Assembly (NCBI GenBank): GCA_900315695.1
Contig: ONAE01000001.1
Span: 1 to 64,000 of the forward strand
DNA length: 64,000 bases
Direction of reading: 5' to 3'
Source: an uncultured Prevotella sp.
GTDB lineage: Bacteria; Bacteroidota; Bacteroidia; Bacteroidales; Bacteroidaceae
This document shows positions 3,766 to 22,240 of this stretch, piece after piece. The stretch's first letter is position 1. Every line of letters begins with the position of its first letter. The notes under the pieces were generated by a model that saw nothing but the letters and a program-made list of their open reading frames with translations, was not told the origin of the DNA and did no database searches. The translations under genes and the position numbers were made by a program.

Positions 3766-4028
3766 ATCACATTAAAATTATCACCGATTTGATTCCAGAA
3801 TATACGCGAGAAGGAGTGTCCATTAACTTTCAGGATTCTGCTGATCTTAAAGATTCGTTCAAGTTTCATGTCCTCACGGAAAGCTTCTATGTAGCCCCCA
3901 TCCCTATAGGAAGAATACCTGATGTCGGAAATACGGCAACGGAACAAGCTACCTGCCCTTGTGATGTACTCTATCTCTATCGTTTGTCTAAATAATATTG
4001 CCCTGTTAATAACCTCCTCTATAACCAT
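3762..4028 (-). CDS. stand-alone WYL-like ligand-binding domain
   Basis: 88 residues. The order of elements fits a minimal WYL-type SH3-like fold: an initial helix (INRAILFRQ), a strand IEIEY, a basic strand after a turn (FRCRISDIRYS), then YIEAFREDMKLERIFKISRILKV. WYL domains bind ligands, often in regulators of defence genes. No HTH is attached, so it would act as a free sensor or partner. The start overlaps the 3' end of dnaB by 23 bases. The fold call rests on pattern only. Confidence 0.5.
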   Translation of the reverse strand: MVIEEVINRAILFRQTIEIEYITRAGSLFRCRISDIRYSSYRDGGYIEAFREDMKLERIFKISRILKVNGHSFSRIFWNQIGDNFNVI

Positions 4029-5508
4029 CTATTGCAGCCAATTTAAATGGGTCTATTTCTTCTTCCGAGTAAAGGCCACCTTCCGTCGGAGGGCGATTTT
4101 CCATAGAGTTCTCTTCAAAATCCTCAAAGCGGGTATATTGCCCTAGAAATTTAGTAACAATGATTCCCGTAGCACCTTTACGATGTTTGGAGATAATGAC
4201 CTCAGCTTTGTCTTTATAGTCGATGAGTCCATCGGAACTCATTAAGATACCATAATATTCTGGACGATGCAAGAAGATCACCATATCAGCATCCTGCTCG
4301 ATGGCACCAGATTCTCGAAGATCAGACAAATGAGGGCGTTTTCCTTCTGCACCTTCACGCGATTCTACGCCACGATTCAACTGGCTCAATGCTAAGACTG
4401 GGATATTCAACTCTTTTGCAAGGCCCTTCAGTGAACGCGATATCAAGGAAACCTCTTCCTGGCGACTGTTATATTTCATACCATTTGCTGTCATCAGCTG
4501 CAGATAGTCTATCATAATCAGTTTCACGCCATGTTCTCTTACCAAGCGCCGGGCCTTTGTCCTCAGTTCCATGACAGATAAACCCTCCGTATCATCAATA
4601 TATAAGGGGGCTTCTTTTAAAATATCCAATTTCTTGTCGAGTCTTAACCAGTCTGCCCTGTCCAACTGTCCACTTAGCAATTTCTGGCCTTCAATCATAC
4701 AGGCATTTGATATTAAACGGTTAGTCAACTGTACATCCGACATTTCCAATGAAAAGAAAGCCACGGGTATTTTCTGATTCCCTGCTATATTCTTTGCCAA
4801 TGAGAGGGCAAAAGCTGTTTTTCCCATAGCTGGTCGAGCTGCTATGATTACAAGATCTGAGTTTTGCCATCCGCAAGTCACGTCATCAAGCGCATTAATC
4901 CCTGATGAGATTCCAGTAATGCCTCCTTGGTTAGAATGAGCGAGTTTCACCATGTCGATAGCTTTGTCAACGATAGGGCATAGTACGGAATATTCCTTCT
5001 TCATGTTTTTCTGAGACAATTCAAAGAGAGTGCTCTCAGCTTCCTGAACCACATCCTTAATATCATAAGTCTCGTCGAAAGTCTTCTTCCCTATCACGCT
5101 GACATAGTGGATCATTTGCCGAGCCAAATATTTCTCTGCTACGACATTGGCATGATATTCGATATTGGCAGAAGTGACAACCCTTGAACTCAAATCCACG
5201 ATATACCCTGGTCCACCTATCTCTTCGAGTTTTCCCATCTTCATGAGTTTGTCCGTTACCGTCAATACATCCACAGGACTCTCATCCATGCTGAGTTTCA
5301 TAATGGCTTCATAAACAAACTGATTTCTTGGTTCATAGAAACTCTCTGGTTTCAACAAGTCACACACCTCGACATAGGCATTCTTGTCGATCATCAAGGC
5401 CCCCAAAACCGCCTTCTCCACCTCAGGAGCCTGAGGCTGGATATGTCCATAGGCGAAATCCGCAGGTTGCTGCTGTTGACTTCTACGACGTTGACTATTG
5501 TTCTCCAT
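4006..5508 (-). CDS. dnaB: replicative DNA helicase DnaB
   Basis: 500 residues from an ATG at 5508. Upstream codons in the same frame lie inside the previous gene and do not look like DnaB. The N-terminal domain begins near HIQPQAPEVEKAVLGALM. The RecA-type helicase domain carries Walker A (ARPAMGKT), Walker B (LIMIDYLQLM) and the LSQLNRGVE and LSDLRESGAIEQDAD motifs. DnaB unwinds DNA at replication forks as a hexamer. The start overlaps the preceding gene by 14 bases, and the WYL-like gene overlaps its end. Finding dnaB inside a run of unknown small genes is unusual; whether this is the only chromosomal copy cannot be told from the window. Confidence 0.93.
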   Translation of the reverse strand: MENNSQRRRSQQQQPADFAYGHIQPQAPEVEKAVLGALMIDKNAYVEVCDLLKPESFYEPRNQFVYEAIMKLSMDESPVDVLTVTDKLMKMGKLEEIGGPGYIVDLSSRVVTSANIEYHANVVAEKYLARQMIHYVSVIGKKTFDETYDIKDVVQEAESTLFELSQKNMKKEYSVLCPIVDKAIDMVKLAHSNQGGITGISSGINALDDVTCGWQNSDLVIIAARPAMGKTAFALSLAKNIAGNQKIPVAFFSLEMSDVQLTNRLISNACMIEGQKLLSGQLDRADWLRLDKKLDILKEAPLYIDDTEGLSVMELRTKARRLVREHGVKLIMIDYLQLMTANGMKYNSRQEEVSLISRSLKGLAKELNIPVLALSQLNRGVESREGAEGKRPHLSDLRESGAIEQDADMVIFLHRPEYYGILMSSDGLIDYKDKAEVIISKHRKGATGIIVTKFLGQYTRFEDFEENSMENRPPTEGGLYSEEEIDPFKLAAIDGYRGGY

Positions 5509-5920
5509 TCTTTTGTGTCTTTTCCTGTTTATTAACCCATTGCTGATCTTTTTCATTGGAAGCGTTAAAAGCTTCAGCAATAATATCACAATCCCTCCCC
5601 TCTTTATATCTATTCTGCATCTCTTTACGTACCAGCGAAACGTTTCCACTCTTTTTGTCGTTGAACTCTTCAACAAGTTCTGCTGTATCCATATCCATAA
5701 TACGCTGCTCACGTATTCCGATCTTGTCGGCAAACATGATATTGAAGATGTTTTCCCGCAGGATTTTCGCCTCCCTTGTCCACTTGTTCATTGTAAGGGC
5801 AGTCAGTTCCTCCCTTGAAAGATTTGGCAACATATCCACACACTTCCTTAACTCTTCATCAGTCCATTTGGAATAATGAAACTTCCTTGCCTGTTTTAAA
5901 ATGTACTCGTAATCTGTCAT
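5495..5920 (-). CDS. hypothetical charged helical protein upstream of dnaB
   Basis: 141 residues, rich in Lys, Glu and Asp, with no membrane segment or recognised motif. The N-terminal part (YILKQARKFHYSKWTDEELR) and a repeated LSREELTALT-type helix suggest an all-helical fold. It overlaps the dnaB start by 14 bases and starts 7 bases after the previous stop, so it is certainly in the same transcript. Its short acidic/basic C-terminus overlaps the dnaB coding start. Confidence 0.65.
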   Translation of the reverse strand: MTDYEYILKQARKFHYSKWTDEELRKCVDMLPNLSREELTALTMNKWTREAKILRENIFNIMFADKIGIREQRIMDMDTAELVEEFNDKKSGNVSLVRKEMQNRYKEGRDCDIIAEAFNASNEKDQQWVNKQEKTQKNGEQ

Positions 5921-7441: not shown

Positions 7442-8434
7442 TTATTGATAATCAATCCTATCTACAGCATTATATACTGCACTCTTTGAGATACCTGTGT
7501 TTTCACAAACGAACTCAATATGCATGTAACCATTAGTGTCAACAGTTACTTTGGTCAAAAAGGTAACTCCGCCTGCTTTCATCTTAGGCAAGTTCTCTAT
7601 TCTTAGCTTAACAATTGATTCGTTTTTATTTGCTTCAGAAAAATTGCCATATCGTATTATACAATCAACAGCAGTTTGATAATCATAGCAAGTCCTAGCA
7701 TCTACACTATGTGTAAATGGCAAAACTTGTCCTCCTGGAATAATTAGTTTGGTAGCGTTGTTTACTATTTCCAGGCTAATCCCTGCTTTCAGTATAGGCC
7801 TAGAACGTTTTGTGTTTGTTACAATCGTATTAAGTCTGTTAACTGAAAGGGTTTTCTTAAGATTATAAATATCTATCGAAGAATGTGGCTTTAAAATATG
7901 ATCTTTATCCATGGAATCATATTCGTCACGTAGGACGTCTATATACTTAATTAGAGAATCTGAATCAATATCATTATAATCAATTCGAGTAAAGTGTTTT
8001 ACCTCATCTAAATCGGCCCAAAGGCGCGTAAACTGTTCCTTAAAGGCATTACACACGCCTTCTTCTGTTGTTACGATGATGTTTTCTGCATTTTTGTATT
8101 CTGCCGAATACGTCCAATTATATGAACCCGAAATTAGCACCTTATTGTCAAATAAGCAAAACTTATTATGCATTAGTAAATTTCGTGTATTCATAAAGCG
8201 AATTGTACCACCTTTCTCTAAAAATGGGTTAAAGTCCAATCCATTTGGCCCACGATTGATAATGTCATCAATAATAATAGCTGACACTCTAACTTTCCTG
8301 TCTAGTGCCCTTAATATTGCCTGGAATAATTCTCTGTGGGTAAACCATGCAACGGCAATACAAATATCAGAAGAAGATGAGTCGATATATTGAATGATGG
8401 CACTTTTGATTTTGAAAAAATATGCTGTAGTCAT
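7442..8434 (-). CDS. PLD-family nuclease fused to an Hsp70 substrate-binding-like domain
   Basis: 330 residues. Residues 1-150 form a single phospholipase-D unit. The HKD motif is complete: H89, K91, D96 and G103-S104-x-N106 (HxKx4Dx6GSxN), with Glu117 after it. One-HKD members such as the Nuc-type nucleases act as dimers on nucleic acid or lipid. After a helical linker (about 150-215), residues 218-310 follow the beta-sandwich of the DnaK/Hsp70 substrate-binding domain: SLEIVNNATKLIIPGGQVLP, a YQTAVDCII strand, KLRIENLPKMKAG, then VTVDTNGYMHIE, which corresponds to the Hsp70 segment ending DANGIL. No Hsp70 ATPase domain is present. The architecture is unfamiliar to me. Confidence 0.8.
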   Translation of the reverse strand: MTTAYFFKIKSAIIQYIDSSSSDICIAVAWFTHRELFQAILRALDRKVRVSAIIIDDIINRGPNGLDFNPFLEKGGTIRFMNTRNLLMHNKFCLFDNKVLISGSYNWTYSAEYKNAENIIVTTEEGVCNAFKEQFTRLWADLDEVKHFTRIDYNDIDSDSLIKYIDVLRDEYDSMDKDHILKPHSSIDIYNLKKTLSVNRLNTIVTNTKRSRPILKAGISLEIVNNATKLIIPGGQVLPFTHSVDARTCYDYQTAVDCIIRYGNFSEANKNESIVKLRIENLPKMKAGGVTFLTKVTVDTNGYMHIEFVCENTGISKSAVYNAVDRIDYQ

Positions 8435-10454: not shown

Positions 10455-12452
10455 CTACATTTTTACTGGATTGTTTACATTTTGTATGTATTTTAAGGGT
10501 ATAAAGCCCTTAACTAACACCTCAGCCTGTTTCTGCTTATACTCAACATCAGATAGTAAATAAACAGGCGTCTGAGTTGCTTGCAAATTCACTTTTTTGA
10601 GGTCTTCAAAGCTGTTACCATGCCTCATTTGTTTTAAAGTTGCCTCCATATCCGTAAATTCGGTATCCTCAAAAGTTGCCACCTCTAATGAAATCTTAAG
10701 AAGGATAAGGTCGGCTCCAGTTTTCTTGCGTTCCTCTCCCTTTGGCAAGTCCCTGCAAAAGCTTAGACGTGCATAATCCTCTAACCCGAATTCTGCATCG
10801 ATGTCTCTAGAGACTGCCATATCAGTTCTGATAGGCATCACAACAGCTTCGTCCAGGCATCTTTTATATGAAAGCAAACCGCCATGTCTTATAATGGAAT
10901 CCAATCTATCTTTGTCAGTAAAGTGGTAAAGGCACTTGATGCCGTTGTCCATCAGATACTGTATAATCTCATTTCTGCATGATTTGTATGACGGCGAATA
11001 ATGGTCTTTAATTAAATAAGGTACAGGAATATGTTGTTTTTCTGCATTGATTTGCAGTCTCTTGAAGAGTGTATTTAGACAATTTGTGAATTCTGTTATT
11101 TCATTTTGAGATAATGCGAAATCACCCCTTCGATACTCTTCATATATGCCCATCGATAAAGAATCATTCTGCACATATCCTATTTCAGACACTTTATCTA
11201 TACCTCCATATTTAAATAAGTAGCATGTGTGAAACACCTTAATGGCATCTTGATAGAAAACGGAACGTTCACCAACTATTTTATTGGAAAATGCCATAGA
11301 TTGAGCAGAATTAAGGTCAGCCAGTTCCATCATATCATGGTTAGCGTTGTCAATCCCGACCAAAAGGATATCGGGATAGTACTTAACGAGCTGAGACCTC
11401 ATTCTGTATGCCCTTATTTTATGTTGGATATTGATGGGGAGAAGGTCGTCGTCATATTTGTCATTCACGACAGTTTCTCTGTCCGACCAGTAAATGATTC
11501 TCGATAGCAGGAGATAAAGAGACTTTATGGCAATTCTCGTTACCTTATCATTAGAAATTAACATCTCCTCTACCCCCCTAACACCCATCGCTTCTATAAT
11601 CATATAGAGAAGATTGGCACAGCCATAAACAGCCTCCTTATTGTTCCAATATATATTAGGTGAAGAAAAGATATGCTGGAAGGTACAATCTGCAAATTTT
11701 ATCGACTCTTCAATTCTGTTAGCTCTGAATAACTTACAGAAAATCTCATTTGCAATATAAGGATTTGAACAAGACTGGTATTTCCTTAAGAACTCATCAC
11801 ATGCTTCATTTTCCAGATTTGTTCTATAGAAGGACTCTTTAGCTTCAGTTACAAACTGATCAATGATAACATGGTCATCAATCTGATGGCTATGATTGAC
11901 ATAGTGTATCGCATCTTCATGTTCATTCATAAGCAGGTAGAACCTTTCCTTGATGGTTTCAAGCGTGAAGTTCTTCTCTGGATCATTCTTACCTGTGGCG
12001 TTCAGAACCATTTGGTATTGGCTGACTTTATCATATAGGTTTTCAGCCATAATGTCATCATGAAGAAATTCTGGTAGCCCATCCACCTGCCAGATGAAAT
12101 GGTCGAGATAGTCTATTTCTTCAACTGTCATTGGAACTGCCCATTGGGGACGAGGATTCCATGTCAACACCTTATTAATATCATAGAGCGTATTGTCCTG
12201 TGGCGGCTGTGCGTCAACGTATTCTTTCTGAAACAGGTCATATCGATGCATTATCAGATCCATGTTAGTGCGAATACCAGGAGAGGCAATGCCAGTTTCC
12301 TCCAGTATAATCTTATATGCCAGAACTAACTGTACAAAGTCCTCATTGTCATTTTGGTTCAGATACTCCAAGAAGCCCGGAACTTTTTTGATATTCCGAA
12401 GCAACTTGGAGTATTGTTCCTCACTCAGACAATATGCCCACTTTTGTTCCAT
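10455..12452 (-). CDS. large protein with C-terminal DarT-like ADP-ribosyltransferase domain
   Basis: 665 residues. Two tandem N-terminal repeats (about 7-80 and 106-185) share a pattern: a Glu-rich helix, a GFLEYL/GLPEFL motif, and an AYKIILEETG or QYQMVLNATG segment. A long helical middle region follows. The last about 160 residues match DarT-type DNA ADP-ribosyltransferases in layout: LYHFTDKDRLDSIIRHGGLL with His510, an SRD motif with Arg549, a DYARLSFC strand, and KQAEVLVKGFIPLKYI with Glu644. In DarT the equivalent His, Arg and Glu bind NAD and catalyse modification of single-stranded DNA. No DarG-like macrodomain gene adjoins it. It starts 6 bases after the preceding gene's stop. Confidence 0.7.
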   Translation of the reverse strand: MEQKWAYCLSEEQYSKLLRNIKKVPGFLEYLNQNDNEDFVQLVLAYKIILEETGIASPGIRTNMDLIMHRYDLFQKEYVDAQPPQDNTLYDINKVLTWNPRPQWAVPMTVEEIDYLDHFIWQVDGLPEFLHDDIMAENLYDKVSQYQMVLNATGKNDPEKNFTLETIKERFYLLMNEHEDAIHYVNHSHQIDDHVIIDQFVTEAKESFYRTNLENEACDEFLRKYQSCSNPYIANEIFCKLFRANRIEESIKFADCTFQHIFSSPNIYWNNKEAVYGCANLLYMIIEAMGVRGVEEMLISNDKVTRIAIKSLYLLLSRIIYWSDRETVVNDKYDDDLLPINIQHKIRAYRMRSQLVKYYPDILLVGIDNANHDMMELADLNSAQSMAFSNKIVGERSVFYQDAIKVFHTCYLFKYGGIDKVSEIGYVQNDSLSMGIYEEYRRGDFALSQNEITEFTNCLNTLFKRLQINAEKQHIPVPYLIKDHYSPSYKSCRNEIIQYLMDNGIKCLYHFTDKDRLDSIIRHGGLLSYKRCLDEAVVMPIRTDMAVSRDIDAEFGLEDYARLSFCRDLPKGEERKKTGADLILLKISLEVATFEDTEFTDMEATLKQMRHGNSFEDLKKVNLQATQTPVYLLSDVEYKQKQAEVLVKGFIPLKYIQNVNNPVKM

Positions 12453-12458
12453 TTGCCA

Positions 12459-13037
12459 CTAATATGGAATGGGACGATAATTCCGATTCATGTATGGCGC
12501 AACAAGTAATTGTTGGAACACCTGTTTGGTGATAGTATAATCCATATGATCAAGAGGCTCGATAATAGCGCCACTCATTTTTGAGATTGCATCAACTTCT
12601 GAGTCTCCACATAGCCTGAATGCGATAAAATACAGAACACTCATATCATTGAGAAGCTCAAAGATATAAGAGAATTCTAGTTCTTCCAGGGCCTTTGGGT
12701 CTGTTTCTGCTTGTGTGGCCAGGGCCTCCATTCTGGCAGTTATTAGGGTTCCTACCTGTTCATTAGGCCTTGTCTGCATCCATCTAATCAGATTTGCATG
12801 AACTTCAGTTGCAGCCATCTGACCATAGAATCTGTGGACTTCTCTTGCAGCTTCAGTGAAATCATCATAGTCTGGCAATTCGTCTCTGGTAAAAGCATCA
12901 TACACAAATTTTGTGGTGTATGCTCTATACATCATATTCAGGACTATCTTATGCGGATATTCATTTCGACTGTATCTGTTTCTCCAATTGGAGATGTTTC
13001 CAATAGCCTCATTCAACGGTGGTCTTAAATCTATCAT
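12459..13037 (-). CDS. hypothetical partner of the DarT-like gene
   Basis: 192 residues from the ATG at 13037, which is preceded by an A-rich leader. An upstream ATG at 13097 would add 20 residues with poor character. The protein is helical, with a FTRDELPDYDDFTEAAREVHRF segment and no known catalytic motif. The 6-base gap to the DarT-like start suggests that the two proteins work together, possibly as toxin and regulator. That is inference from spacing alone. Confidence 0.6.
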   Translation of the reverse strand: MIDLRPPLNEAIGNISNWRNRYSRNEYPHKIVLNMMYRAYTTKFVYDAFTRDELPDYDDFTEAAREVHRFYGQMAATEVHANLIRWMQTRPNEQVGTLITARMEALATQAETDPKALEELEFSYIFELLNDMSVLYFIAFRLCGDSEVDAISKMSGAIIEPLDHMDYTITKQVFQQLLVAPYMNRNYRPIPY

Positions 13038-13110
13038 AGCTGTTTTTATTTTGAGATTATTATCTATCTGAATATATAATAGTTCTAAAACATTCAAAAA
13101 AGATTGCTGG

Positions 13111-13166: not shown

Positions 13167-13331
13167 CTACTTTTTGCCAAACAAAGTCTTGATAATGGTA
13201 GATCCTATCTTCCTTTCAAGACCATTCTTTGTTAATGGGATTCCCGTTTCCCTGGCAATCTTTTGTTTTGCCTGAGAGATACCTAATGCCCGTTTCAATG
13301 AAAATGTTACTCCAGGTATTTTCATAAGCAT
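13167..13331 (-). CDS. 54-residue basic protein
   Basis: An ATG at 13331 (or 13325) gives a Lys/Arg-rich protein: IPGVTFSLKRALGISQAKQK, then TGIPLTKNGLERKIG, ending LFGKK. I recall similar small ALGIS...TGIP-LT...G-RKIG proteins beside accessory loci, without a known function. It begins 6 bases after the TerB-like gene, matching the 5-6 base spacing of its neighbours. Confidence 0.65.
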   Translation of the reverse strand: MLMKIPGVTFSLKRALGISQAKQKIARETGIPLTKNGLERKIGSTIIKTLFGKK

Positions 13332-13337
13332 ATTTAA

Positions 13338-13712
13338 TTAAGATCTTGTACTATTCTCAATTTGCTCGGGATTAACAACGTCTTCAAATTTCAAGTCAAT
13401 ATTACAAGTTTTGCATACTAACTCAAAAATGGCCATCTCGTTTACATTGATGTCTTCGTCAACAACAATCTGTTGTCCCATCATTTTTGCCATTTCTTGT
13501 TTTTGATGGGCATCCAAGCTGTTTACTTCCAAAAGACATAGTAATGAGTTTGCCTCATTTATTGCTGGACGGTGTTCTTCTCCAATTCCCAATATCTTGG
13601 CAACTTTGTTGAAGTAAAATGTTTCTCTTGCATCTATGCGTCCATCTGCATTGATTATATCAAATAAGATACGCATAATAGCAATTTTCTGTTGAAAATT
13701 TAATTTTTCCAT
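13338..13712 (-). CDS. TerB-like protein
   Basis: 124 residues, all helical, with the TerB hallmark acidic loop INADGRIDARETFYF near residues 20-35. A second acidic element, VDEDINVNEMAIFELV, lies near 85-100. TerB-type domains occur in tellurite-resistance and phage-defence loci and are thought to bind metal ions and membranes or partner proteins. It lies in the operon between the 544-residue protein and the 54-residue protein, with 6-base gaps on both sides. Confidence 0.65.
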   Translation of the reverse strand: MEKLNFQQKIAIMRILFDIINADGRIDARETFYFNKVAKILGIGEEHRPAINEANSLLCLLEVNSLDAHQKQEMAKMMGQQIVVDEDINVNEMAIFELVCKTCNIDLKFEDVVNPEQIENSTRS

Positions 13713-13718
13713 ATTGTT

Positions 13719-15353
13719 TTAATTATCTAAATTTGCGAACAATGATCTTTTTTCCAAATAATCCGCCGGGGCGAAATTTTGATTGAGAAGATTTCGATAT
13801 TCTTTTTCATCATGAGCATATTCTTCTTTAGCATATCTTCCTGTACAGAATTTATCACCACCTTTTTTAAGTTTCTTCATCAAAATAGGAAAATTCATAG
13901 ATGAAGACAGTATTTGTCCTTCGTTGCTTGGCTGTTCTTGAACAACTTCTTCTTGAGCTGTTTCTTCTTGTAATGAGTCTTGAGGCTCGCCCTGTTTTGA
14001 TTGTTCGTCATCATTTACAATAGGTTCCTTTTCTTCTGTTAAAGGCTGAACTTGATTACTCTGTTCATCTTGTACGAGTTCCGTCTTAACTTCCTCTTCA
14101 CCCTTTGTGACAGGTGTTTCTTTCAGAGACTCATTCTCAGAACAAGCATCTTCAGTAGCAGAAGTCGGATTCTTACTTTCTTTTTCTTCATCCTGCTTTT
14201 CATCTGAAGCCTCATTCAATAGCTCTTCCATTGCTATGGCATCCTCTCGAAGTTTTTTAACCTCATTGGAAAGTCTATTAATGAGTTCTTGGGCTTCTTG
14301 TGAGTTTAAGCTATCTCCTGTTTCCGGATTCAATATTTGGGCGTTAATTCTAGATTCCACAAAATGATTGAATATTCCAAGATTCTGGATTTCATAATAG
14401 CAACTATACGTCAAATCGTGTCCTAAAGAAAGGCCAAGCAAAGAAACCGCTACGGCAAAGTCAAAATTGAAATGATTATAGAAATCTCCATTGTAGATAT
14501 ATTCGTTGCCACGGAATGAAGCAGGGGTTATTCCCCCTTCTTTAAAATAGGATTTAAGATATAGAAACAATGGGGCCACAGCAAAATAGTTACAACCATT
14601 AACTTGATAATCATCACCTTGCTTGTGTTTAAGCAACTTGTATATCTCAGAAATTTTCGGCTCGCAGGAGCCAATAACATCACCCAAAGGGACTTCATCG
14701 GCAATTTCGTAATCAATTTCCGACTTTTGTTTAAAATTCTCATATACATGTATGGCATCTGAGAAAAAACCTCTATTATCATTCCAATACGGCTGATGTC
14801 TTTCGTATCTTATTAGATAATTCCAGATACTTCGGTTGCCTGAAGGTCTTACATGATTGAATAGGTCTGAAAATAACTCTTCTACGAATCCTTTGGGGAG
14901 TAGTTTTGCAACCGCAGCTCTGTCTTCGTTACTAATTTTAAATATTTCAAAGCAATTAAATTCTCCCGCTTTTGCTTGTCGTATAGCTTGTTTCTTATTT
15001 AATTCTGAAAAGAAGTCATTCCATGCAGATACTTGTAAGACAATCCTGGAATCCAATGATACTGCAAGGCTTGCTCTTGCCTCCTCGTCTAAAGCATAGA
15101 CATCTACAATATCTTTCACAAATATCTCTACTGAACTACCCGAAAAAGGTATTTTAAATATGTGAAGTAGAAGATATTCTGTTGAATATTCAAATGTATC
15201 CATATATGCCGTAACTGCATCAAACAAAAATTTGTCATCAGCATGATCACTTAGTTTCCCTTCAAATGGGACTACATTGTGAACATATATATGTCCAAAC
15301 TTATATAAATTACTAAAATCAGAACGACTGATTATTGTCAGATAATTAACCAT
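13719..15353 (-). CDS. unknown 544-residue protein with acidic low-complexity region
   Basis: Residues 1-360 look globular (aromatic-rich, no membrane segment). About 370-480 is a Glu/Gln/Ser-rich disordered stretch with repeated EE, QSNQ and VQEQ. A short conserved-looking tail follows (GGDKFCTGRYAKEEYAHDEKEY). No family recognised. It sits between the helicase and the TerB-like gene with 6-base gaps, so it is an integral member of the operon. It could be a scaffold or a target of the conjugation enzymes, but that is speculation. Confidence 0.7.
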   Translation of the reverse strand: MVNYLTIISRSDFSNLYKFGHIYVHNVVPFEGKLSDHADDKFLFDAVTAYMDTFEYSTEYLLLHIFKIPFSGSSVEIFVKDIVDVYALDEEARASLAVSLDSRIVLQVSAWNDFFSELNKKQAIRQAKAGEFNCFEIFKISNEDRAAVAKLLPKGFVEELFSDLFNHVRPSGNRSIWNYLIRYERHQPYWNDNRGFFSDAIHVYENFKQKSEIDYEIADEVPLGDVIGSCEPKISEIYKLLKHKQGDDYQVNGCNYFAVAPLFLYLKSYFKEGGITPASFRGNEYIYNGDFYNHFNFDFAVAVSLLGLSLGHDLTYSCYYEIQNLGIFNHFVESRINAQILNPETGDSLNSQEAQELINRLSNEVKKLREDAIAMEELLNEASDEKQDEEKESKNPTSATEDACSENESLKETPVTKGEEEVKTELVQDEQSNQVQPLTEEKEPIVNDDEQSKQGEPQDSLQEETAQEEVVQEQPSNEGQILSSSMNFPILMKKLKKGGDKFCTGRYAKEEYAHDEKEYRNLLNQNFAPADYLEKRSLFANLDN

Positions 15354-15359
15354 GATTTA

Positions 15360-16541
15360 TTATGCTATAGAACGTATTGTACAATCACTTTCGAATGGGC
15401 GAACATAACTATGCAAGTTTCCCGTATAAGTAATATATAGATTCATACGGGCGCGTGTCATAGCTACCATGAAGAGAGTTTTGGATAGAGATTCGTTGTA
15501 GCTGATCCAAAGATAGTCACTGCAGAATGGAATGTAGACATAATCAAAATCTAACCCTTTTGCACTATGATAAGTCATCAAGACAACATAATCAGGATTG
15601 CTTCTAAACTGTCCATATCCATTCCCGACATATTGCATTTTCAATCCACAAGAAGAAAGATGAGAATTCATGGCTCCAAAATCTACTTTACCATATTGGT
15701 TCATTTGGCTATTCCACATTGGCTTTCCTTGTGATGCTAATGCTTTATTTACAAATTCCACTATACCTTTTTGAGTAGGAATAAGTATAGCTGCTGTATA
15801 TCCACGCTGAATTACGCGAGATGAATTTTGAATGACAAACGAGATTTCTGCATCTTTGGAATTCGCCTTACATAAGGAAATCTTAGTGTCAACATGATTA
15901 AGATTTGTTCTTGTGCCAAAAATGTTTAAACGCAAGAATGACTTTACAGCTTTCATTATGGACTCTGTAAGTCGCTCAACAATGGTCAATTCAAAATCTC
16001 CTCCATGTATTAGTGATGGAATCTGTGAAACATCAACTGTCTTCTCTCTCCATTTGGGGTCTTCAGGGTAGATAGACTGATTAGAATCTCCAGCAACTAC
16101 GACATGAGCGGATCTGTCATACATTCTACTTAGAACTCTTGGCGTTAAGTCCTGAACTTCATCACAAAGAATATATTCATACGATGAGGATGATGTCATA
16201 AATGAATAGAACGTCATAACGGGAATGTTGACAGGTGGCGTCAGCTCTCTTAGCGCTTTTTTAAACATTTCAACCAACGACTGGGTATAAACAATAAGCA
16301 CAATTTTGGAATTTGGTTTCAAAGCAAGAATTTTTCTTGCTACATGAACCAACAAAATTGATTTACCTGACCCCGCAAAACCTTTGACCCAGAGGTTATG
16401 CAGATTGTTGTTTCTGAAATCCCTTTCAAATTCTTGAAGGAATCTCTTCTGGTCAGGATTTAAACGATCTTCAGGCACAAACCATTTACTTTCTGAAGCG
16501 CCAGTAATAGTGCCTGTTGTGGGATTGTAAATGCTAGGCAT
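15360..16541 (-). CDS. UvrD/Rep-like superfamily 1 helicase
   Basis: 393 residues, about half the length of UvrD. Seen in order are Walker A GFAGSGKS (54-61), motif Ia (VYTQSL), Walker B YILCDEVQDL (about 123-132), motif III VVAGDSNQSIY, motif V TYHSAKGLDFDYVY and motif VI VAMTRARMNLYI. It would be an ATP-driven DNA or RNA translocase. The insertions 1B and 2B of UvrD are short or absent. It lies 5 bases after the Clp-type ATPase in the same operon. Confidence 0.88.
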   Translation of the reverse strand: MPSIYNPTTGTITGASESKWFVPEDRLNPDQKRFLQEFERDFRNNNLHNLWVKGFAGSGKSILLVHVARKILALKPNSKIVLIVYTQSLVEMFKKALRELTPPVNIPVMTFYSFMTSSSSYEYILCDEVQDLTPRVLSRMYDRSAHVVVAGDSNQSIYPEDPKWREKTVDVSQIPSLIHGGDFELTIVERLTESIMKAVKSFLRLNIFGTRTNLNHVDTKISLCKANSKDAEISFVIQNSSRVIQRGYTAAILIPTQKGIVEFVNKALASQGKPMWNSQMNQYGKVDFGAMNSHLSSCGLKMQYVGNGYGQFRSNPDYVVLMTYHSAKGLDFDYVYIPFCSDYLWISYNESLSKTLFMVAMTRARMNLYITYTGNLHSYVRPFESDCTIRSIA

Positions 16542-16546
16542 AATTA

Positions 16547-19213
16547 TTAGATATTAGTGAATTTAAGTGTATTCTGTCCAGATGATATTTGAATAGGAGC
16601 ATCTTTGGTTATTTCACCATTGATTATACTAATACTCATATCATCAATTAAGTATGAATTAATAGCACGTTTAACAGGTCTTGCCCCGAACTCAGGCTGG
16701 AAGCCAACATTGACGAGGAAATCAACAGCATCGTCTGTTACTCGAATATCAACACCTTGCGACTTCATTTTTTTTGCCAATGAATTTATCTGCAAAACAA
16801 CAATTTTTTTAATCTCATCTCTTGATAGTGGGAGGAACATAATAATGTCATCAATTCTATTAACGAATTCTGGAGCAACTTTAGTCTTCAGTTCGGTCAA
16901 GATAAGTTTCTTTGCCCTAGCTATTTTATCTTCAGTTACAAGATTATTATCTGTATCTGCATTTTGATTCTCGCTGACATTAAATCCAATTCTGTTCCTT
17001 TGCAGATTTCTCCGACCTTGCAATGTGGAATATATTATCTGCTGTCCAAGATTAGATGTCATCACAATAATTGTGTTTTTGAAGTTTATAGTACGGCCTT
17101 TGCCATCGGTCATTCTACCCTCATCAAGAACTTGAAGGAGGGCTTCAAAAACCTTTGGATGAGCTTTCTCTATTTCATCAAATAAAATAACTGAATATGG
17201 TTTCCGTCTGACAGCTTCGGTTAATTGGCCACCATTTTCGAAACCAATATAGCCCGGAGGTGCACCAAATAGTTTAGAAACTTCATGTTCTTGCTGATAT
17301 TCGCTCATGTCAATTCTTATTAGGGCATCACGGCTATCAAACAAGAATTCACTTAAGGCTTTACATAACTCTGTTTTGCCAACTCCAGTTGTGCCTAAGA
17401 ACAAGAAAGTACCTATGGGTTTGTTGGCATCACTGAACCCCATCTTGTTTCGACGAATGGCATTTGCAACCAAGATCTTTGCCTCCTCTTGCCCAATAAC
17501 AGTCTGATTCAAATACTCTTCAATATGTGCTAATTTCTGAGTTTCGTTTTCAGACAGTTTGGAAACTGGTATTCCCGTCCATTCTGTAATGACATTCATT
17601 ACATCAACTTCATCAAGTTCTGGCTTTAGCAAATTTTGAGACACGTTTTCTTCTAATGTCTCCATCAAATGGTGAATTTCATCATTAAGATCATGTATCT
17701 GCATAGATATATTCACCACGGAAGTAGCTGCGCCCTGACTCTCTGCAAGACGTTTGTCTTCGTTTAAGCGCGCTATGTCGTTCCTGCGATCTTGTATCTC
17801 TTCCAAAAGCTGACGTTCGCTTTGCCATTTAGCGTGAAGAGAATTCTCTTCTTCTCTTAAGTTTGCGATTTCTTCTTGAAGTTGAAGCACAGTAGGACTA
17901 GATTCGTCATCACGCTTTATAGATTCGCATTCTATCTCTTTAGTTGTAATCTTCCTTCTAAGAGAATCCAGTTCCACAGGTGATGTAGAGCGCGCAATTT
18001 TCATCTTAGCAGCAGATTCATCCAATAAATCAATAGCTTTGTCCGGTAAGTATCTATCTTGAATATATCTCATAGACAATTGCACCGATGCCTTTATCGC
18101 CTCGTCCTTTATTCGTATCCTATGAAAATCTTCCAGCCTTACTCTAATACCGCGCAATATGGCCAGTGCAGACTCCATATCAGGTTCTTCAACCTCTACC
18201 TTCTGGAAACGCCTTTCAAATGCTTTATCTTGTTCAATATATTTTTTGTATTCATCAAAGGTTGTTGCTCCTATAACCTTTATTACACCTCTGGCTAATT
18301 CGGGCTTTAATATATTGGCGGCATCCATTGCGCCTCCACTTCTGCCCTCTCCAATAAGAAGGTGTATTTCATCTATAAAAAGGATGACGTTACCTTCTGA
18401 ACTAATCAGATCATCAATGACGTCCCTTAATCTTTCTTCAAATTCACCCATATGACTTGCACCAGCAATCAATGAGGCGATATTTAAAGAATATAGCTGA
18501 ATTCCCCTTAACTCTCGAGGAATATCACCTTCGACTATTCTATGAGCCAGTCCTTCTACAATTGCAGTTTTTCCTGTTCCTGGTTCACCAACAAGAATAG
18601 GATTGTTTTTCGTCTGGCGAGATAAAATGTGTATAATTCTTCTTATTTCGTCATCTCTTCCGATTGCTTTGTGAATTATACCATTACGAGCATCAGAACA
18701 CAAATTGCGCCCATACTTCTCCAAGTTAGGATAATTACCATTGTTATCTTCAGTTTGGACTGCGTTTTCTATTTCACTATTACCTCGATAATATGAGATA
18801 GCTTCAGCTAATTGCTCCTCATCTATACCAAAACTGGAGAATACATCCTTTACTTTAGATGGTACAAGTATCATTGATAACAACAGAAATTCAATTGGAA
18901 TAAGCTCACATCCACTTTCGTTAGATAGTAGTTTGGCTTTTACCAATATTTCACTTGTTCTTTCGCCTATAATAGGAGCTTCATCAGAGATTTCATTTAT
19001 CTCCATGATTGTCTCATTTATTCTTTTGCAGAAAGCGATTCTATCTACATGCAAGAATTGCATAACATATGAAAGCATGTCACGGCCTTCATTTACAATA
19101 CCTGCCATAAGAACCTGTGGCTCCAAATATTTGTAACGGCATTCTTCTGTCATATTGATGGCTTTAAGAATGCTCCTCTTAGATTTTTCTGTATAGATAT
19201 TTAGCTGTAACAT
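16547..19213 (-). CDS. two-ring Clp/Hsp100 ATPase with ClpB-like M domain and IGF loop
   Basis: 888 residues: a Clp N-like domain (about 1-145), AAA+ ring 1 with Walker A GEPGTGKT (209-216) and Walker B (277-282), a coiled M domain (about 410-530), AAA+ ring 2 with GTTGVGKT (607-614) and FDEIEKA, and the arginine-finger segment PEFVNRID (781-788). The M domain has ClpB length. However, a loop before PEFVNRID carries IGFNV (742-746), the place and sequence type of the ClpP-docking loop in ClpC/ClpA, which ClpB lacks. Ring-1 pore loop reads SHMG instead of the usual KYRG (His254 for Tyr). The ring-2 pore GYIGF is intact. It probably unfolds or extracts modified proteins. The gap to the E1 gene is 2 bases. 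Confidence 0.88.
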   Translation of the reverse strand: MLQLNIYTEKSKRSILKAINMTEECRYKYLEPQVLMAGIVNEGRDMLSYVMQFLHVDRIAFCKRINETIMEINEISDEAPIIGERTSEILVKAKLLSNESGCELIPIEFLLLSMILVPSKVKDVFSSFGIDEEQLAEAISYYRGNSEIENAVQTEDNNGNYPNLEKYGRNLCSDARNGIIHKAIGRDDEIRRIIHILSRQTKNNPILVGEPGTGKTAIVEGLAHRIVEGDIPRELRGIQLYSLNIASLIAGASHMGEFEERLRDVIDDLISSEGNVILFIDEIHLLIGEGRSGGAMDAANILKPELARGVIKVIGATTFDEYKKYIEQDKAFERRFQKVEVEEPDMESALAILRGIRVRLEDFHRIRIKDEAIKASVQLSMRYIQDRYLPDKAIDLLDESAAKMKIARSTSPVELDSLRRKITTKEIECESIKRDDESSPTVLQLQEEIANLREEENSLHAKWQSERQLLEEIQDRRNDIARLNEDKRLAESQGAATSVVNISMQIHDLNDEIHHLMETLEENVSQNLLKPELDEVDVMNVITEWTGIPVSKLSENETQKLAHIEEYLNQTVIGQEEAKILVANAIRRNKMGFSDANKPIGTFLFLGTTGVGKTELCKALSEFLFDSRDALIRIDMSEYQQEHEVSKLFGAPPGYIGFENGGQLTEAVRRKPYSVILFDEIEKAHPKVFEALLQVLDEGRMTDGKGRTINFKNTIIVMTSNLGQQIIYSTLQGRRNLQRNRIGFNVSENQNADTDNNLVTEDKIARAKKLILTELKTKVAPEFVNRIDDIIMFLPLSRDEIKKIVVLQINSLAKKMKSQGVDIRVTDDAVDFLVNVGFQPEFGARPVKRAINSYLIDDMSISIINGEITKDAPIQISSGQNTLKFTNI

Positions 19214-19215
19214 TA

Positions 19216-20496
19216 TTAATTATCGTCTAAATGAAAATCTATATCTGCATACTCCGCATACATGGGATGGCTTAATTTTAACCCTGTATCAAGCGTGGGA
19301 ATTTCCGAACAAATGGCACAATGCTCATCTTTTGGAATAGTTATGCCATACCATTTCAGTATTGTTTGTTTGGGGCCAGACTTGTAGAAAGGATGCCAAT
19401 TTGAGAAATTATGATCTCGTCTATTAGCCCATATATATGCGTCATATTTAAGGTCTTCTTCGAGAGAAGATATTCCAGACTGCATACCCTTTGAGAGTTC
19501 AAGAAGTGCCAGCTTTAGCATCAAGTTACAGATGGGTTCAATGTCAACAGAAAGCCCCACCTGGATTATTGCATTTACATCTTCTGCAGAAGCGTAAGCA
19601 GGGATTGCACCGCTTCTTCTTCCGGACTCCTCGCTAGATACTTCTTCATCACGTGAGTCTATAATTCGACTTCCTATTAAGCACCCATAACAAGGGCCAC
19701 CAGGTTTATAACGAAACACATCACCACCAGCAGCTCTAGTTATTGCTCTCCCAAAAATGCCAACTCTCTGATATTTATGCAAAGCTGACGCTATAACAAA
19801 ACGACTGACGTTATTGTCAGTTGCACAGATTACTAAATCAACATTTTTAGCTACGTCACAGAATACCTCTTTCTGGGTGGCAATATTGATGGCATACTTG
19901 TTAACTAGTGCATATGGATTTTTGCCTAAAATGACTTCTTCAATTGCATCCGTCTTAAGACGCCCCAAATCTTTAAGTGTGCAAGAGTGTCTTCCGATAT
20001 TGTGTAACTCTACTCTGTCAAAATCAAAGAGAGAGAAAATGCCTACTCCTGCTTTCGCTAATTCGATAGCGATTTGGGAACCGAAGCTCCCTAATCCAAC
20101 AATAGCCACATGTTTTTTAGACAGAATCTCAACTTCCAGAAGTCCTTTACTTCTTGAATACAGCTCATCTTTGCCTGGAATCAGTTTGGCAGGGATTTCA
20201 ACGACATCGTTACTATCCAGCTTATAAACTTTGGTATCAAGTTTGTCGGCCTTTTGGGAGATGGTTACAATATACCTAATATCTTCGTTGAAATCCGATG
20301 AGGAGATCTTTGCTTCACTAGTGAATAAACACCTTTTTACTAGACCAAATGAATGTTGGAGGGGGTGAGAATGTAAATGAATAACATTCTCACCTTCCCA
20401 TTCATAGGAATAGCCTAATAGTTCCTTTTCAGGACTATTAAGGAATCCTTTAACCTCCTCAGAGGCTAAGTATACTTCGTACGTCATACTAAGCAT
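19216..20496 (-). CDS. E1-like activating enzyme with JAB-like N-terminus
   Basis: 426 residues from the ATG at 20496, which overlaps the previous stop by 8 bases and has GAGG 6 bases upstream. An ATG at 20487 is an alternative. Residues about 1-110 contain HLHSHP and, 22 residues later, SSSD, similar to a JAMM/JAB metal site but with wider spacing. Residues about 128-330 are a ThiF/E1 Rossmann fold: VAIVGLGSFGS, then DFDRVELHNIGRH and VDLVICATDNN. CxxC pairs (CYGC and CAIC) likely bind zinc, as in MoeB. E1 enzymes adenylate the C-terminus of a ubiquitin-like protein and pass it to E2. Context (E2, JAB-E2 and Clp genes) supports a conjugation role. Confidence 0.85.
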   Translation of the reverse strand: MLSMTYEVYLASEEVKGFLNSPEKELLGYSYEWEGENVIHLHSHPLQHSFGLVKRCLFTSEAKISSSDFNEDIRYIVTISQKADKLDTKVYKLDSNDVVEIPAKLIPGKDELYSRSKGLLEVEILSKKHVAIVGLGSFGSQIAIELAKAGVGIFSLFDFDRVELHNIGRHSCTLKDLGRLKTDAIEEVILGKNPYALVNKYAINIATQKEVFCDVAKNVDLVICATDNNVSRFVIASALHKYQRVGIFGRAITRAAGGDVFRYKPGGPCYGCLIGSRIIDSRDEEVSSEESGRRSGAIPAYASAEDVNAIIQVGLSVDIEPICNLMLKLALLELSKGMQSGISSLEEDLKYDAYIWANRRDHNFSNWHPFYKSGPKQTILKWYGITIPKDEHCAICSEIPTLDTGLKLSHPMYAEYADIDFHLDDN

Positions 20497-20671
20497 ATCC
20501 TTCCTCTGCAAAACGTGTAGCATCTTGAGAGCCATCTTCGAGTTGAGAGTCTGCATCTTTTATTATAAAATCTCCAGTCTCCTCGTCATATATGATTTGA
20601 CGACGGATGTCACCACCACGAATTTTCTTCAGTACTTCACCGAGAGAGTTGTTGTTCTGATTGTCGTTCAT
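20489..20671 (-). CDS. 60-residue small protein, candidate modifier
   Basis: Encoded between E2 and E1. It is polar, with an Asn/Gln-rich start (NDNQNNNSLGEVLKK), a basic GGDIRRQ segment, an acidic middle (YDEETGDFIIKDAD) and the C-terminus FAEEGYA. It is too short for a full beta-grasp fold and looks largely disordered, which recalls Pup-type tags. The Gly two residues before the end could be exposed by a JAB peptidase. It has no GG and no detectable similarity to ubiquitin, so the modifier role is inference from position. Confidence 0.6.
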   Translation of the reverse strand: MNDNQNNNSLGEVLKKIRGGDIRRQIIYDEETGDFIIKDADSQLEDGSQDATRFAEEGYA

Positions 20672-20694
20672 AATTATATATTTTAATGTTTGTA

Positions 20695-21123
20695 TTAATC
20701 TTGGGTTCCTAAATAGTCACAAATATCATCACCAGTTTGGAGATGTGCCTCATATGCCTCTAGCCACACTCGGCATTTTAAATACACCTTATTTAATGCG
20801 ACATCAGGCTTCCAAGAGGTGTTTCCGTAATGGCAAATCCTGGTATAGCCATGTTCGCTACCTAATGTATGCATTTCATGGCTCGGATGGTCCAAATCAT
20901 CACCAAATTTACTCTTTAGCATTTTTGTAACAAACACTTTGGGTATAGACTCAGGGAATTGGTCTAAGTCAACACGTAGTGTGTACATGTTCTTGCTGTT
21001 TGTAATAGCCACCATTTTAAGATATGGAAGATCAGAATCCATATCACAAAATTTGAACATGTTAGGAGGAAGTGACAACTGAAGAGCGTCAACTTCTGCA
21101 TGAAATCTACTTGCTGTCATCAT
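20695..21123 (-). CDS. E2-like conjugating enzyme
   Basis: 142 residues. It follows the prokaryotic E2 (UBC-like) pattern: strands YTLRVDLDQFP, a Pro-rich turn, an HP/H-rich loop before YTRICHYG with the candidate catalytic Cys97, Trp104 after it, then a helix WLEAYEAHLQTG, typical of bacterial E2 families. It would take the modifier from E1 as a thioester. Its start overlaps the end of the JAB-E2 gene by 17 bases, so it is translationally linked. Confidence 0.75.
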   Translation of the reverse strand: MMTASRFHAEVDALQLSLPPNMFKFCDMDSDLPYLKMVAITNSKNMYTLRVDLDQFPESIPKVFVTKMLKSKFGDDLDHPSHEMHTLGSEHGYTRICHYGNTSWKPDVALNKVYLKCRVWLEAYEAHLQTGDDICDYLGTQD

Positions 21124-22120
21124 AATTGTAATTCTTTATTAGGTTGTTGTAATATGATATAAACGTTGAATAAATGTCACCATTGAATTTCCATAGAGCA
21201 TGTTTGCAAAAAATATGGCCATAAGGGTCACTTATATGCGGCGGCTCCAATGGAAAAGCAGACGGAAAATGTATGTCTTCTAATAGGAAGTCATTTTGAT
21301 AGATTTCAATATGAACTTCATTTGATTTATCCAAAGTTGGTACAAAATCATGTAGTGGATGTGAATCCTTTAATTTGTCTATGATAGATTTTAGAATTTT
21401 CGAATTTCCTTTCTGAGTTAACCAATATGACTTCTCATATTTTATCTTTTCTTGGCTGACTGATTTGCCTTTGGTAAACAATCCAACCATATTGGGTGAT
21501 TTTATGGTAGGAAGAATAAATGTATTTGAATTGATAATTCTCCGATAAGGACTCTCCATGTCCTTAATAAACCAAGGTATTTGCTCGTATTGGCTTTTAG
21601 TAGAATCAAACATGAAAGCATTTATCGATGATTGAGAAGAATTACATGTTGCAATACATAAAAGGAATTTCTTGTAGCCCAAGGAACGCATGTTAGTAGA
21701 AATGTTTCGAGAGTCATGACCACTAGGATGATCAAGTCCTAATTGATGATGAGAATGCCATTCACCAACATGATCAAGACCATACTTTTCTTTTAATATA
21801 CGCGCACATTTTTTAAGATAATCTAAGTCCTGCATAAAGAAAGAATCATAATGGCCAGCCTGCGGACCTGGGCCTAGGACGAAAAGAACAACAGGTTTAC
21901 CATCATATGTCCAATAGCCGAAAAGTTGCCCACCTGTCTCGATGTCTTTATAATCTAGAATATACCTAGATAATAAATCCATTTCCTCCTGATTAGTCAA
22001 TACATAATCATGAAAAGAACTTGCTGATAGATCTTTTAACACCTTTGTAGAATTGAACTTCTCACGTTTTTTTCTTAAAAGATTCCAATGTTTTATTGTA
22101 CTATATGACCTCCTTGACAT
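21107..22120 (-). CDS. JAB/JAMM peptidase fused to an E2-like domain
   Basis: 337 residues, first gene of the operon. The JAB domain (about 40-190) has Glu61 in ETGGQLFG, then HSH (H122, H124) and S133-x-x-D136, a complete ExnHxHx8SxxD zinc-protease site. JAB enzymes remove or process ubiquitin-like tags. The C-terminal region (about 235-330) has an E2-like run: VHIEIYQNDF, FPSAFPLEPPHI, then GHIFCKHALW with Cys305 where E2 enzymes carry their catalytic Cys, and a final helix. The E2 assignment is weaker than the JAB one. A good promoter lies about 90 bases upstream. Confidence 0.85.
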   Translation of the reverse strand: MSRRSYSTIKHWNLLRKKREKFNSTKVLKDLSASSFHDYVLTNQEEMDLLSRYILDYKDIETGGQLFGYWTYDGKPVVLFVLGPGPQAGHYDSFFMQDLDYLKKCARILKEKYGLDHVGEWHSHHQLGLDHPSGHDSRNISTNMRSLGYKKFLLCIATCNSSQSSINAFMFDSTKSQYEQIPWFIKDMESPYRRIINSNTFILPTIKSPNMVGLFTKGKSVSQEKIKYEKSYWLTQKGNSKILKSIIDKLKDSHPLHDFVPTLDKSNEVHIEIYQNDFLLEDIHFPSAFPLEPPHISDPYGHIFCKHALWKFNGDIYSTFISYYNNLIKNYNYDDSK

Positions 22121-22208: not shown

Positions 22209-22240
22209 CAAAAATAGATAATATTTCTGAACTTTGCAAA
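22209..22240 (-). promoter_or_regulatory. promoter of the E1/E2/JAB/Clp operon
   Basis: On the minus strand, TTTG (22240-22237), 20 bases, then TATTTTTG (22216-22209). The start codon at 22120 follows after an AT-rich leader of about 85 bases. This 22,121-22,348 gap holds this promoter and the divergent one at 22290-22320. Confidence 0.7.

Follow-up and report, generated by a model that had tools for sequence, protein, structure and literature searches.

What do the closest described systems lead one to expect of a nine-gene operon from an uncultured Prevotella species, for which we propose a role in protein conjugation? In type II cyclic-oligonucleotide-based anti-phage signalling systems (CBASS), the conjugated protein lacks the beta-grasp fold and ends in Gly or Ala, the enzyme Cap2 acting on cGAS (PMC10097602); a modifier without this fold thus has a precedent. 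Five types of operon with E1, E2 and JAB proteins are listed in an earlier survey, none of which has the make-up reported here (Iyer et al., 2006; PMC1779556), and Bub has been tied to immune regulators in another study (PMC13373217). Among the papers listed in our searches of the openly licensed literature we saw no account of the present system; an earlier description is possible, the primary Bub paper lying outside that set. We take type 6d of the survey to be Bil and its type 6e to be Bub. The operon lies within the first 64,000 nucleotides of contig ONAE01000001.1 (assembly GCA_900315695.1), which as a whole are called the window. On balance we favour, with moderate confidence, the reading that it encodes a diverged ubiquitin-like conjugation system, with the 60-residue protein P0003 as the predicted modifier and with variable accessory genes.

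13167-22120, minus strand: nine-gene operon, P0001 to P0009, with all open reading frames (ORFs) confirmed
22209-22239, minus strand: Bacteroidetes-type promoter-like site, TTG...TAnnTTTG, upstream of P0001 (a motif match only)

The junctions from P0001 to P0009 measure, in order, -17, 23, -68, 2, 5, 6, 6 and 6 bases, which bears out the short gaps and overlaps of a preliminary description made from the sequence; of the single promoter assumed there, the upstream site can be pointed to as a motif, and four further TAnnTTTG sites lie inside the operon. In the related locus L009 (L-numbers label loci or stretches compared with the window) all nine ORFs are open and share 70-98% amino acid identity with the window copies, and the ratio of nonsynonymous to synonymous substitution rates is 0.018-0.235 for the seven genes where it is computable, synonymous sites being saturated for P0001 and the 54-residue gene and the 60-residue ORF overlapping the start of the E1 gene. 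The nine ORFs are thus real genes.

The unit that recurs is smaller than the operon. Scanning a species-genome collection with P0001 yielded 43 loci, mostly from Bacteroidales, the others from Fibrobacter, Kiritimatiellae, cyanobacteria (eight) and Flavobacteriia (one record); four extra stretches from family genomes, two of them identical to contigs of L009 and L041, bring the sample to 45 distinct loci, L009 and L052 being one contig that is counted once. Several of these are incomplete, and L031 stops before E1, which leaves 44 with both E2 and E1. Five complete loci were fetched later (L067, L068, L092, L093 and L094), of which L093, L067 and L068 hold 1.1-2.5 kb after E1. The gene order JAB-E2, E2, gap, E1 is kept in the 45 distinct loci, and what recurs is a core of four genes: JAB-E2 (P0001), E2 (P0002), the 60-residue protein (P0003) and E1 (P0004). 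The whole nine-gene set was found again in one of the 45, L009, and because no other fetched locus repeats it, we reject the nine-gene block as the unit. A search with P0001 located the core in 6 of 251 family genomes, the own genome counted and one match being weak, and in none of 16 listed genomes of the same genus; the profile detected it in 5 of 399 genomes of the family, 5 of 393 of the order and 3 of 395 of the phylum, always counting the own genome. In the protein database, JAB-E2 has 1749 homologues at E<=1e-20. No clean empty site was seen in same-genus genomes, where the flanking genes P0012 and P0015 are on separate contigs or about 85 kb apart if both occur.

The enzymes of the core are laid out as follows.

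21107-22120, minus strand: P0001, metalloprotease of JAB type whose C-terminal, E2/RWD-like domain has no conserved cysteine (PADLOC JAB, 1.1e-13)
21713-21757, minus strand: JAB metal-site motif H122-S-H-H...S133-x-x-D136, invariant
20695-21123, minus strand: P0002, E2 of ubiquitin-conjugating fold with the active-site candidate C97-H98 (AlphaFold2 model and fold matches)
20833-20835, minus strand: codon of E2 C97, a cysteine in 46 of 46 sequences
19216-20556, minus strand: P0004, E1-like adenylating enzyme of MoeB/ThiF type with a presumed Cx2C...Cx2C zinc site and an N-terminal domain not assigned to a type
19630-20133, minus strand: ThiF adenylation domain of E1, residues 142-309 (Pfam ThiF, 3.1e-28)

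The JAB residues E46, E61, H122, H124, S133 and D136 are kept in 46 of 46 sequences, and P0001 is predicted to be the enzyme that processes and removes the tag. Of the JAB-E2 fusion described at the outset, the JAB part is confirmed, the E2-like C-terminus weaker: its hhalign comparison with P0002 reaches E=0.0012 at a probability of 20%, and single family members match UQ_con at 0.02 and RWD at 0.024, all weak values. The second E2-like protein holds up well, the model of P0002 having a predicted local distance difference test (pLDDT) score of 94.6 and its best fold matches being E2s, the closest the CBASS CdnG-E2 complex; an E2 profile found no PDB sequence at E<=1. P0004 is matched in the PDB by MoeB (8.8e-26, the best), MccB (1.9e-17), PaaA (6.3e-14) and Cap2 (1.6e-12), and by BubCD (9ea4) only at 3.1e-5 within the adenylation domain. 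Its active-site residues are intact, and its only invariant cysteines are four, arranged as two Cx2C pairs that resemble a zinc site. The E1 assignment thus stands, while the JAB-like N-terminus once ascribed to it is rejected: when its profile was compared with that of the P0001 JAB domain, the probability was 1%.

Searches of mobile elements with JAB-E2 returned only a Bradyrhizobium pair among plasmid records, nothing among phage records and one contig in IMG/VR. This contig, L065, encodes a fusion of a helix-turn-helix domain with JAB, together with an E2 and an E1 whose N-terminus is tag-like; an ORF that looks recombinase-like by eye adjoins them. The E1 matched 386 plasmid records, the best 20 of which comprise two from Bradyrhizobium, then 13 annotated as moeB and five without annotation.

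Could such an E1 serve the making of a peptide instead? In a pathway like those for ribosomally synthesized and post-translationally modified peptides (RiPPs), E1 would adenylate a precursor as MccB does, JAB would cut it, and the product would be a modified peptide. The matches to MccB and PaaA beside MoeB fit this idea, as do genes of a family labelled F8 near the core in five loci, the two members tested being Radical_SAM proteins. However, an invariant E2 cysteine in an E2 fold has no usual place in RiPP-like pathways, F8 genes accompany only 5 of 45 loci, and the idea sits ill with the presence of a Clp ATPase at 24 of the 44 loci and of a hairpin common to the tag and to large partner proteins, so that we consider peptide maturation quite improbable. 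The F8 genes are found in L011, L019, L036, L054 and L055, with four in a row in the last two.

Between the E2 and E1 genes lies a conserved ORF, some 60 residues long, with a predicted N-terminal helix. The preliminary description had named this small protein and suggested Gly- or Ala-ended tags; the choice of P0003 as the modifier is ours.

20489-20671, minus strand: P0003, 60-residue predicted modifier with N-terminal helix, hairpin motif and C-terminus E-E-G-Y-A (family conservation)
20567-20590, minus strand: hairpin motif Y-D-E-E-T-G-D-F of P0003 (motif search; low-confidence model strands)
20492-20500, minus strand: codons of the C-terminal G-Y-A of P0003 (end pattern [GP][FYW][AFYIL])
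L067:3219-3701, minus strand: tandem tag ORF of two nearly identical units head to tail, polyubiquitin-like

The family consensus typically reads (L/I)-V-(F/Y)-(N/D)-P-x-T-G-E-F and then V-V-T-x-M-T-K-x-G-F-A. By a hidden Markov model (HMM) built partly from the same loci, the family is present in 42 of 44 loci, with a shorter form recognised by eye in L042 and L043, and a tag occurs in all five later loci (three by HMM, two by eye). A protein database holds 139 homologues at E<=0.01; none of the 120 listed has a Pfam domain, and 113 of these show the pattern [GP][FYW][AFYIL] near the end, 31 stopping exactly there and 82 being tailed, with seven lacking the signature. The tails beyond the G-F-A/P-F-F-type end are unconserved. 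In 8 of 44 loci (Bacteroidales, Kiritimatiellae and cyanobacteria) a P0003-type protein is fused in frame to E1. Ubiquitin genes encode three types of precursor, tailed, tandem and fused. The tailed, tandem and E1-fused forms found here look like the same precursor logic, which makes P0003 a likely tag. In archaea a JAMM enzyme is reported to process a ubiquitin precursor (PMC6043591). Several tag-like ORFs stand in a row between E2 and E1 in L018:6302-7005, L020:3027-3424, L014:3486-3851 and L012:11364-11894, some of them without the G-F-A end.

As for its fold, P0003 has no Pfam match to ubiquitin, ThiS or MoaD, and its model (pLDDT 60.8, predicted template modelling score 0.32, both weak; helix 5-18, hairpin 24-29/34-39, helix 51-57) gives no sign of a beta-grasp fold, being too weak to exclude one. 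Among PDB sequences the P0003 profile matches best a set of designed proteins, the kelch-like SAKe proteins, which share its turn motif (1.9e-9 overall, though no single stretch passes).

The fusions admit another interpretation, in which P0003 belongs to E1 as a subunit that can detach and serves regulation or docking, much as if an N-terminal extension of E1 had turned into a separate gene, and some other protein is conjugated, as the cGAS/DncV-like nucleotidyltransferase (CD-NTase) is in type II CBASS. The eight E1-fused loci are compatible with it, as is the tag-like N-terminus of E1 in L065 and L066, where the end signature is lost; L066 further encodes, beside a SAVED-Cap4 nuclease and a TIR protein, a fragment that resembles a CD-NTase and has F-G-A as its last residues, and conjugated cGAS has a conserved C-terminal Gly or Ala (PMC10097602). 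Yet in the P0003 family the conserved end is followed by tails that vary, one tandem copy is known and most loci have a separate gene, the core holds no other conserved candidate modifier, and no CD-NTase or SMODS protein is found among the Pfam matches listed for P0001-P0015 or among the best 25 PADLOC families per protein for P0001-P0010. We therefore think a purely regulatory P0003 unlikely and retain it as the predicted modifier.

A second property of P0003 links the core to its neighbours. Its hairpin motif is reminiscent of chignolin, a designed minimal hairpin; AFFinger p17, presumably a chignolin-type binder, appears in the comparison of the P0003 profile with the PDB at E=0.28, below the kelch-like proteins with the same turn. 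The motif stands at the N-terminus of the helicase P0006 as well.

15360-16541, minus strand: P0006, superfamily 1 (SF1), UvrD-like helicase with the hairpin motif at its start (UvrD_C, 1.2e-12)
16506-16529, minus strand: hairpin motif Y-N-P-T-T-G-T-I at the P0006 N-terminus, at the same place in the L009 homologue

In a first count, the motif occurred at the N-termini of 20 of 180 proteins encoded after E1 and of 0 of 580 control ORFs; a fuller count gave 26 N-terminal carriers, spread over 21 of the 44 loci, and none among 4176 other ORFs in all frames. The carriers include the helicases of L009 and the window, immunoglobulin-like repeat proteins, tiny membrane proteins and a membrane protein family labelled F4, and a membrane-helix-like stretch is present in 17 of the 26, compared with 50 of 159 non-carriers. 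Outside the 6 kb downstream, the regular expression for the motif hit 1 of 702 ORFs in seven loci, namely the tag of L093. In the own genome a DNA form of the motif, which ends in Phe and is thus blind to the helicase copy, gave 8 matches against 9 in a reversed control; four of the eight lie in frame in an ORF of at least 40 residues, and only P0003 and a 50-residue ORF (L076) have it near the N-terminus. Where F4 loci have odd tags, their partners are odd in a matching way (NTMSF/TRMSF in L041, GKW/GRW in L033), and the pairing of tag and partner gave p=0.008 in a permutation test over 20 loci and 13 columns and p=0.003 within the six F4 loci. Which protein might read the hairpin? Clp is disfavoured, for L010, L012, L013, L040, L054 and L055 have hairpin-like partners and no Clp in the 7-8 kb after E1 (the same holds for L011 and L067, with only 1.2 and 1.8 kb after E1), and so is the N-terminal domain of E1, which L040 lacks while having a tag and a hairpin partner. 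Since the hairpin thus occurs without Clp and in a locus whose E1 has no N-terminal domain, its reader would be a core enzyme.

A frequent accessory feature is the two-ring Clp ATPase, which the preliminary description had identified correctly.

16547-19213, minus strand: P0005, ClpB-like two-ring AAA+ ATPase without the pore-loop tyrosine of the first ring, D1 (NCBIfam ClpB, 1.5e-291)

With 969.8 bits, P0005 scores below the equivalog cut-off of 1232.1 for ClpB, and a separate ClpB above the family cut-off is encoded elsewhere in the genome. A Clp gene comes after E1 at 24 of the 44 loci; in L050 one lies on the opposite strand, 6 kb away. Across 24 aligned operon Clps (the window and 23 others, the partial Clp of L026 left out), Walker A and B of both rings are intact and the pore tyrosine of D2 is kept in 24 of 24, that of D1 in 0 of 24, the D1 loop being wholly missing in 11. 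Because the D1 pore tyrosine is lost and that of D2 kept, the sequences suggest threading by the second ring only. A shorter type of Clp (724-790 residues) with the D1 pore loop deleted is found in L027, L029, L033-L036, L038, L039 and L041-L043; its middle region has 51-53 residues in the five measured, compared with 167-185 in the long type, and in all these loci except L029 an F4 membrane protein comes next.

How could these parts work together as a conjugation system? The E1 P0004 would activate P0003 at its C-terminus and pass it to C97 of the E2, P0002, and the JAB of P0001 would both trim the tag and take it off again. The cut in the precursor may fall at its conserved end, G/P-aromatic-A/F, directly behind G/P or two residues further on (Gly58 or Ala60 in P0003). 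As the only invariant cysteines of E1 are the four in zinc-site-like pairs, E1 would hand the tag straight to E2. The hairpin may be a docking element read by the E1 catalytic domain, by E2 or by the E2-like tail of JAB-E2, and partners starting with the same hairpin, the helicase here and membrane proteins elsewhere, could thereby reach the machinery, whether as clients or as anchors. In loci that have a Clp, it would remodel proteins that are tagged or docked and rely mainly on its second ring for pulling, and the whole might serve defence against phages or a related stress. In its boldest form this amounts to a fourth bacterial ubiquitin-like system, with a non-beta-grasp, helix-plus-hairpin modifier of 60 residues made as tailed, tandem or E1-fused precursors, a portable docking hairpin copied onto the N-termini of partners (membrane anchors, helicases, other effectors), one reader for tag and partners, and a Clp pulling only by its second ring; this full version we put forward tentatively, as possible and still open to considerable doubt.

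A number of observations weigh against this proposal. Conjugation, cleavage and docking are all deduced, and Foldseek with the P0002 model returned nothing at E<=0.001. The end of the tag varies (Gly, Pro, Ala, Phe and Tyr occur near it), which is unusual for E1 substrates; the E1-fused N-termini of L065 and L066 have a hairpin-like stretch and no G-F-A end, the tag HMMs giving E=0.026-0.065 for L065 and no match for L066, and fusion to E1 could alternatively mean a permanent part of E1. The regular expression for the hairpin was defined post hoc, after examples, and the aligned 13-mers of the pairing test were picked by eye; in the 14 loci outside F4 the pairing is not locus-specific (p=0.55 over 13 columns, 0.053 over the post-turn columns). 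Partners positive by the regular expression are missing from 23 of 44 loci, and among the later five they appear downstream in only one, L067; counting variants seen by eye in L092 and L094, three of the five have a hairpin partner. L066, outside these five, has none by the regular expression. Clp is absent after E1 in 20 of 44 loci, 15 of which hold at least 6.7 kb and five at most 3 kb after E1, and from all five later complete loci (best E=0.054). Defence genes, finally, flank relatives and are not among the nine genes of the window.

A role in defence or stress is nonetheless likely, the link being drawn from the neighbours of relatives. On a conjugative Bradyrhizobium plasmid (L066) the core is followed by the SMODS fragment ending in F-G-A, the nuclease and the TIR protein mentioned above, that is, by a CBASS; in L068 the genes after it encode an ATPase similar to PtuA (2.2e-66) and a protein with HNH-like matches (HNH_I-A 3.8e-8, PtuB 4.5e-6). 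A LeoBC-like dynamin gene lies downstream in L024, and the L009 copy adjoins genes for a Mob_Pre relaxase and a DUF1016 nuclease. Other loci have ordinary neighbours, such as PALP and S-methyltransferase genes.

The remaining genes of the operon, and the two that follow it, are these.

13719-15353, minus strand: P0007, acidic protein of no assigned fold, no family match reaching the cut-off
13338-13712, minus strand: P0008, TerB-like protein (Pfam TerB, 9.8e-8, partial)
13167-13331, minus strand: P0009, basic protein of 54 residues, no family above the cut-off, also downstream of Clp in other loci
10455-13097, minus strand: P0010, function unassigned, and P0011, with a DarT-like C-terminus, downstream at gaps of 69 and 6 bases

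The SF1 helicase and the TerB-like protein are as first described. P0009 has homologues in L009, L020, L021, L030 and L032; a match to Pfam ubiquitin (E=0.067) made it a candidate for a ubiquitin-like modifier, which was set aside because it was found in only these 5 of 45 distinct loci. The helicase, P0007 and TerB were found again in L009 alone of the 45, so that of the E1-Clp-helicase combination once expected to recur, core and Clp do occur together, and a conserved unit that takes in the others is not supported by the loci fetched. This raises the question of whether E1, E2 and JAB cooperate within a loose collection of stress and defence genes, Clp, helicase, P0007 and TerB being passengers of a variable island. 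Downstream genes indeed differ widely between loci, the core is present in only about 1.3% of the sampled family and order genomes (5/399 and 5/393, own included), and the later complete loci are without Clp. Against mere passengers stand the gaps of 2-6 bases that separate the genes from E1 through P0009, the signs of purifying selection, the Clp of 24 of 44 loci with its one common pore-loop loss, the helicase bearing the hairpin motif of the tag, and the 65 homologues of P0007 in the protein database, which carry no Pfam domains; we judge such a loose assembly improbable. Nor do the doubts attached to the preliminary description, that its genes might not co-occur or that E1 and E2 might lack a relation to conjugation families, apply to core and Clp, because the genes co-occur and both enzymes relate to such families by PDB profile or fold matches.

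Further out, the C-terminus of P0011 matches the DarT ADP-ribosyltransferase (Pfam 2.2e-17, PADLOC 4.9e-13); L009 has other genes in the place of P0010 and P0011, including the DUF1016 nuclease. Upstream of the operon lie P0013 (22349-22843, plus strand), a secreted-looking protein with N-Y-G-G-G and T-N-Y-Y repeat blocks that adjoins the operon promoter, and P0014 (22950-23831), which is phosphoribosyltransferase-like with a weak PADLOC ShosT match (4e-7). By eye, an ftsZ-like gene (1561-2799) and a dnaB-like gene (4006-5733) were recognised, and between the latter and the operon a phospholipase-D-type nuclease-like protein with an HxK motif (7442-8434).

How, then, does the locus relate to the known systems? 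With type II CBASS it shares the chemistry of E1, E2 and JAB, an E2 fold nearest to the CdnG-E2 complex and a relative of the core within a CBASS locus, L066, and the active-site residues expected of a Cap3-like JAB appear intact in P0001; whereas Cap2 fuses E1 to E2, the two are separate here (P0004 and P0002), JAB is fused to an E2-like domain, and a dedicated small protein stands between E2 and E1. Like Bil, it has separate genes for a small modifier, an E2 with conserved cysteine, an E1 and a JAB; unlike P0003, which shows no such signature, the modifiers of type 6d are predicted to be beta-grasp proteins, its JAB has a JAB-N domain of its own and its operon an extra helical protein (PMC1779556). 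With Bub it has in common JAB, E1, an inactive E2/RWD-like domain and tandem modifier repeats. In the same survey, type 6e differs in having one to three beta-grasp repeats and an E1 that is usually fused to JAB, a subset carrying another N-terminal domain on E1 (PMC1779556), whereas Pfam finds no beta-grasp repeat gene among our nine and the tandem of L067 is of the hairpin type. The chemistry is thus common to type II CBASS, Bil and Bub, and the locus, as tested, corresponds to the full definition of none of them.

Other resemblances are looser. The enzymology of MccB-type E1s is similar in that a ThiF-fold enzyme acts on a short peptide; microcin C7 synthesis is not known to involve an E2 or a JAB. 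P0005 departs from a ClpB disaggregase in its score and in the missing D1 pore tyrosine. With Pup the system would share a modifier of about 60 residues, largely unstructured in a low-confidence model, and the AAA+ unfoldase encoded alongside it at 24 of the 44 loci. The ligases of pupylation are glutamine-synthetase-like, and Pup ends in GGQ/GGE; here there are E1, E2 and JAB and a G-Y-A/G-F-A end, with no PafA/Dop ligase among the Pfam matches listed for P0001-P0015. With Clp so often a neighbour, the system would combine an E1/E2 tag with an unfoldase, an unusual arrangement for bacteria, and the hairpin of tag and partners makes the putative docking code directly testable with short peptides. 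To our knowledge, all dedicated modifiers of E1/E2 systems that can be named are beta-grasp proteins, the CBASS cyclase being the known exception. If our reading is true, a dedicated mini-modifier without this fold, present in 42 of 44 loci beside a full E1/E2/JAB set, would mean that what such systems conserve at their centre is the enzyme cascade and not the fold of ubiquitin.

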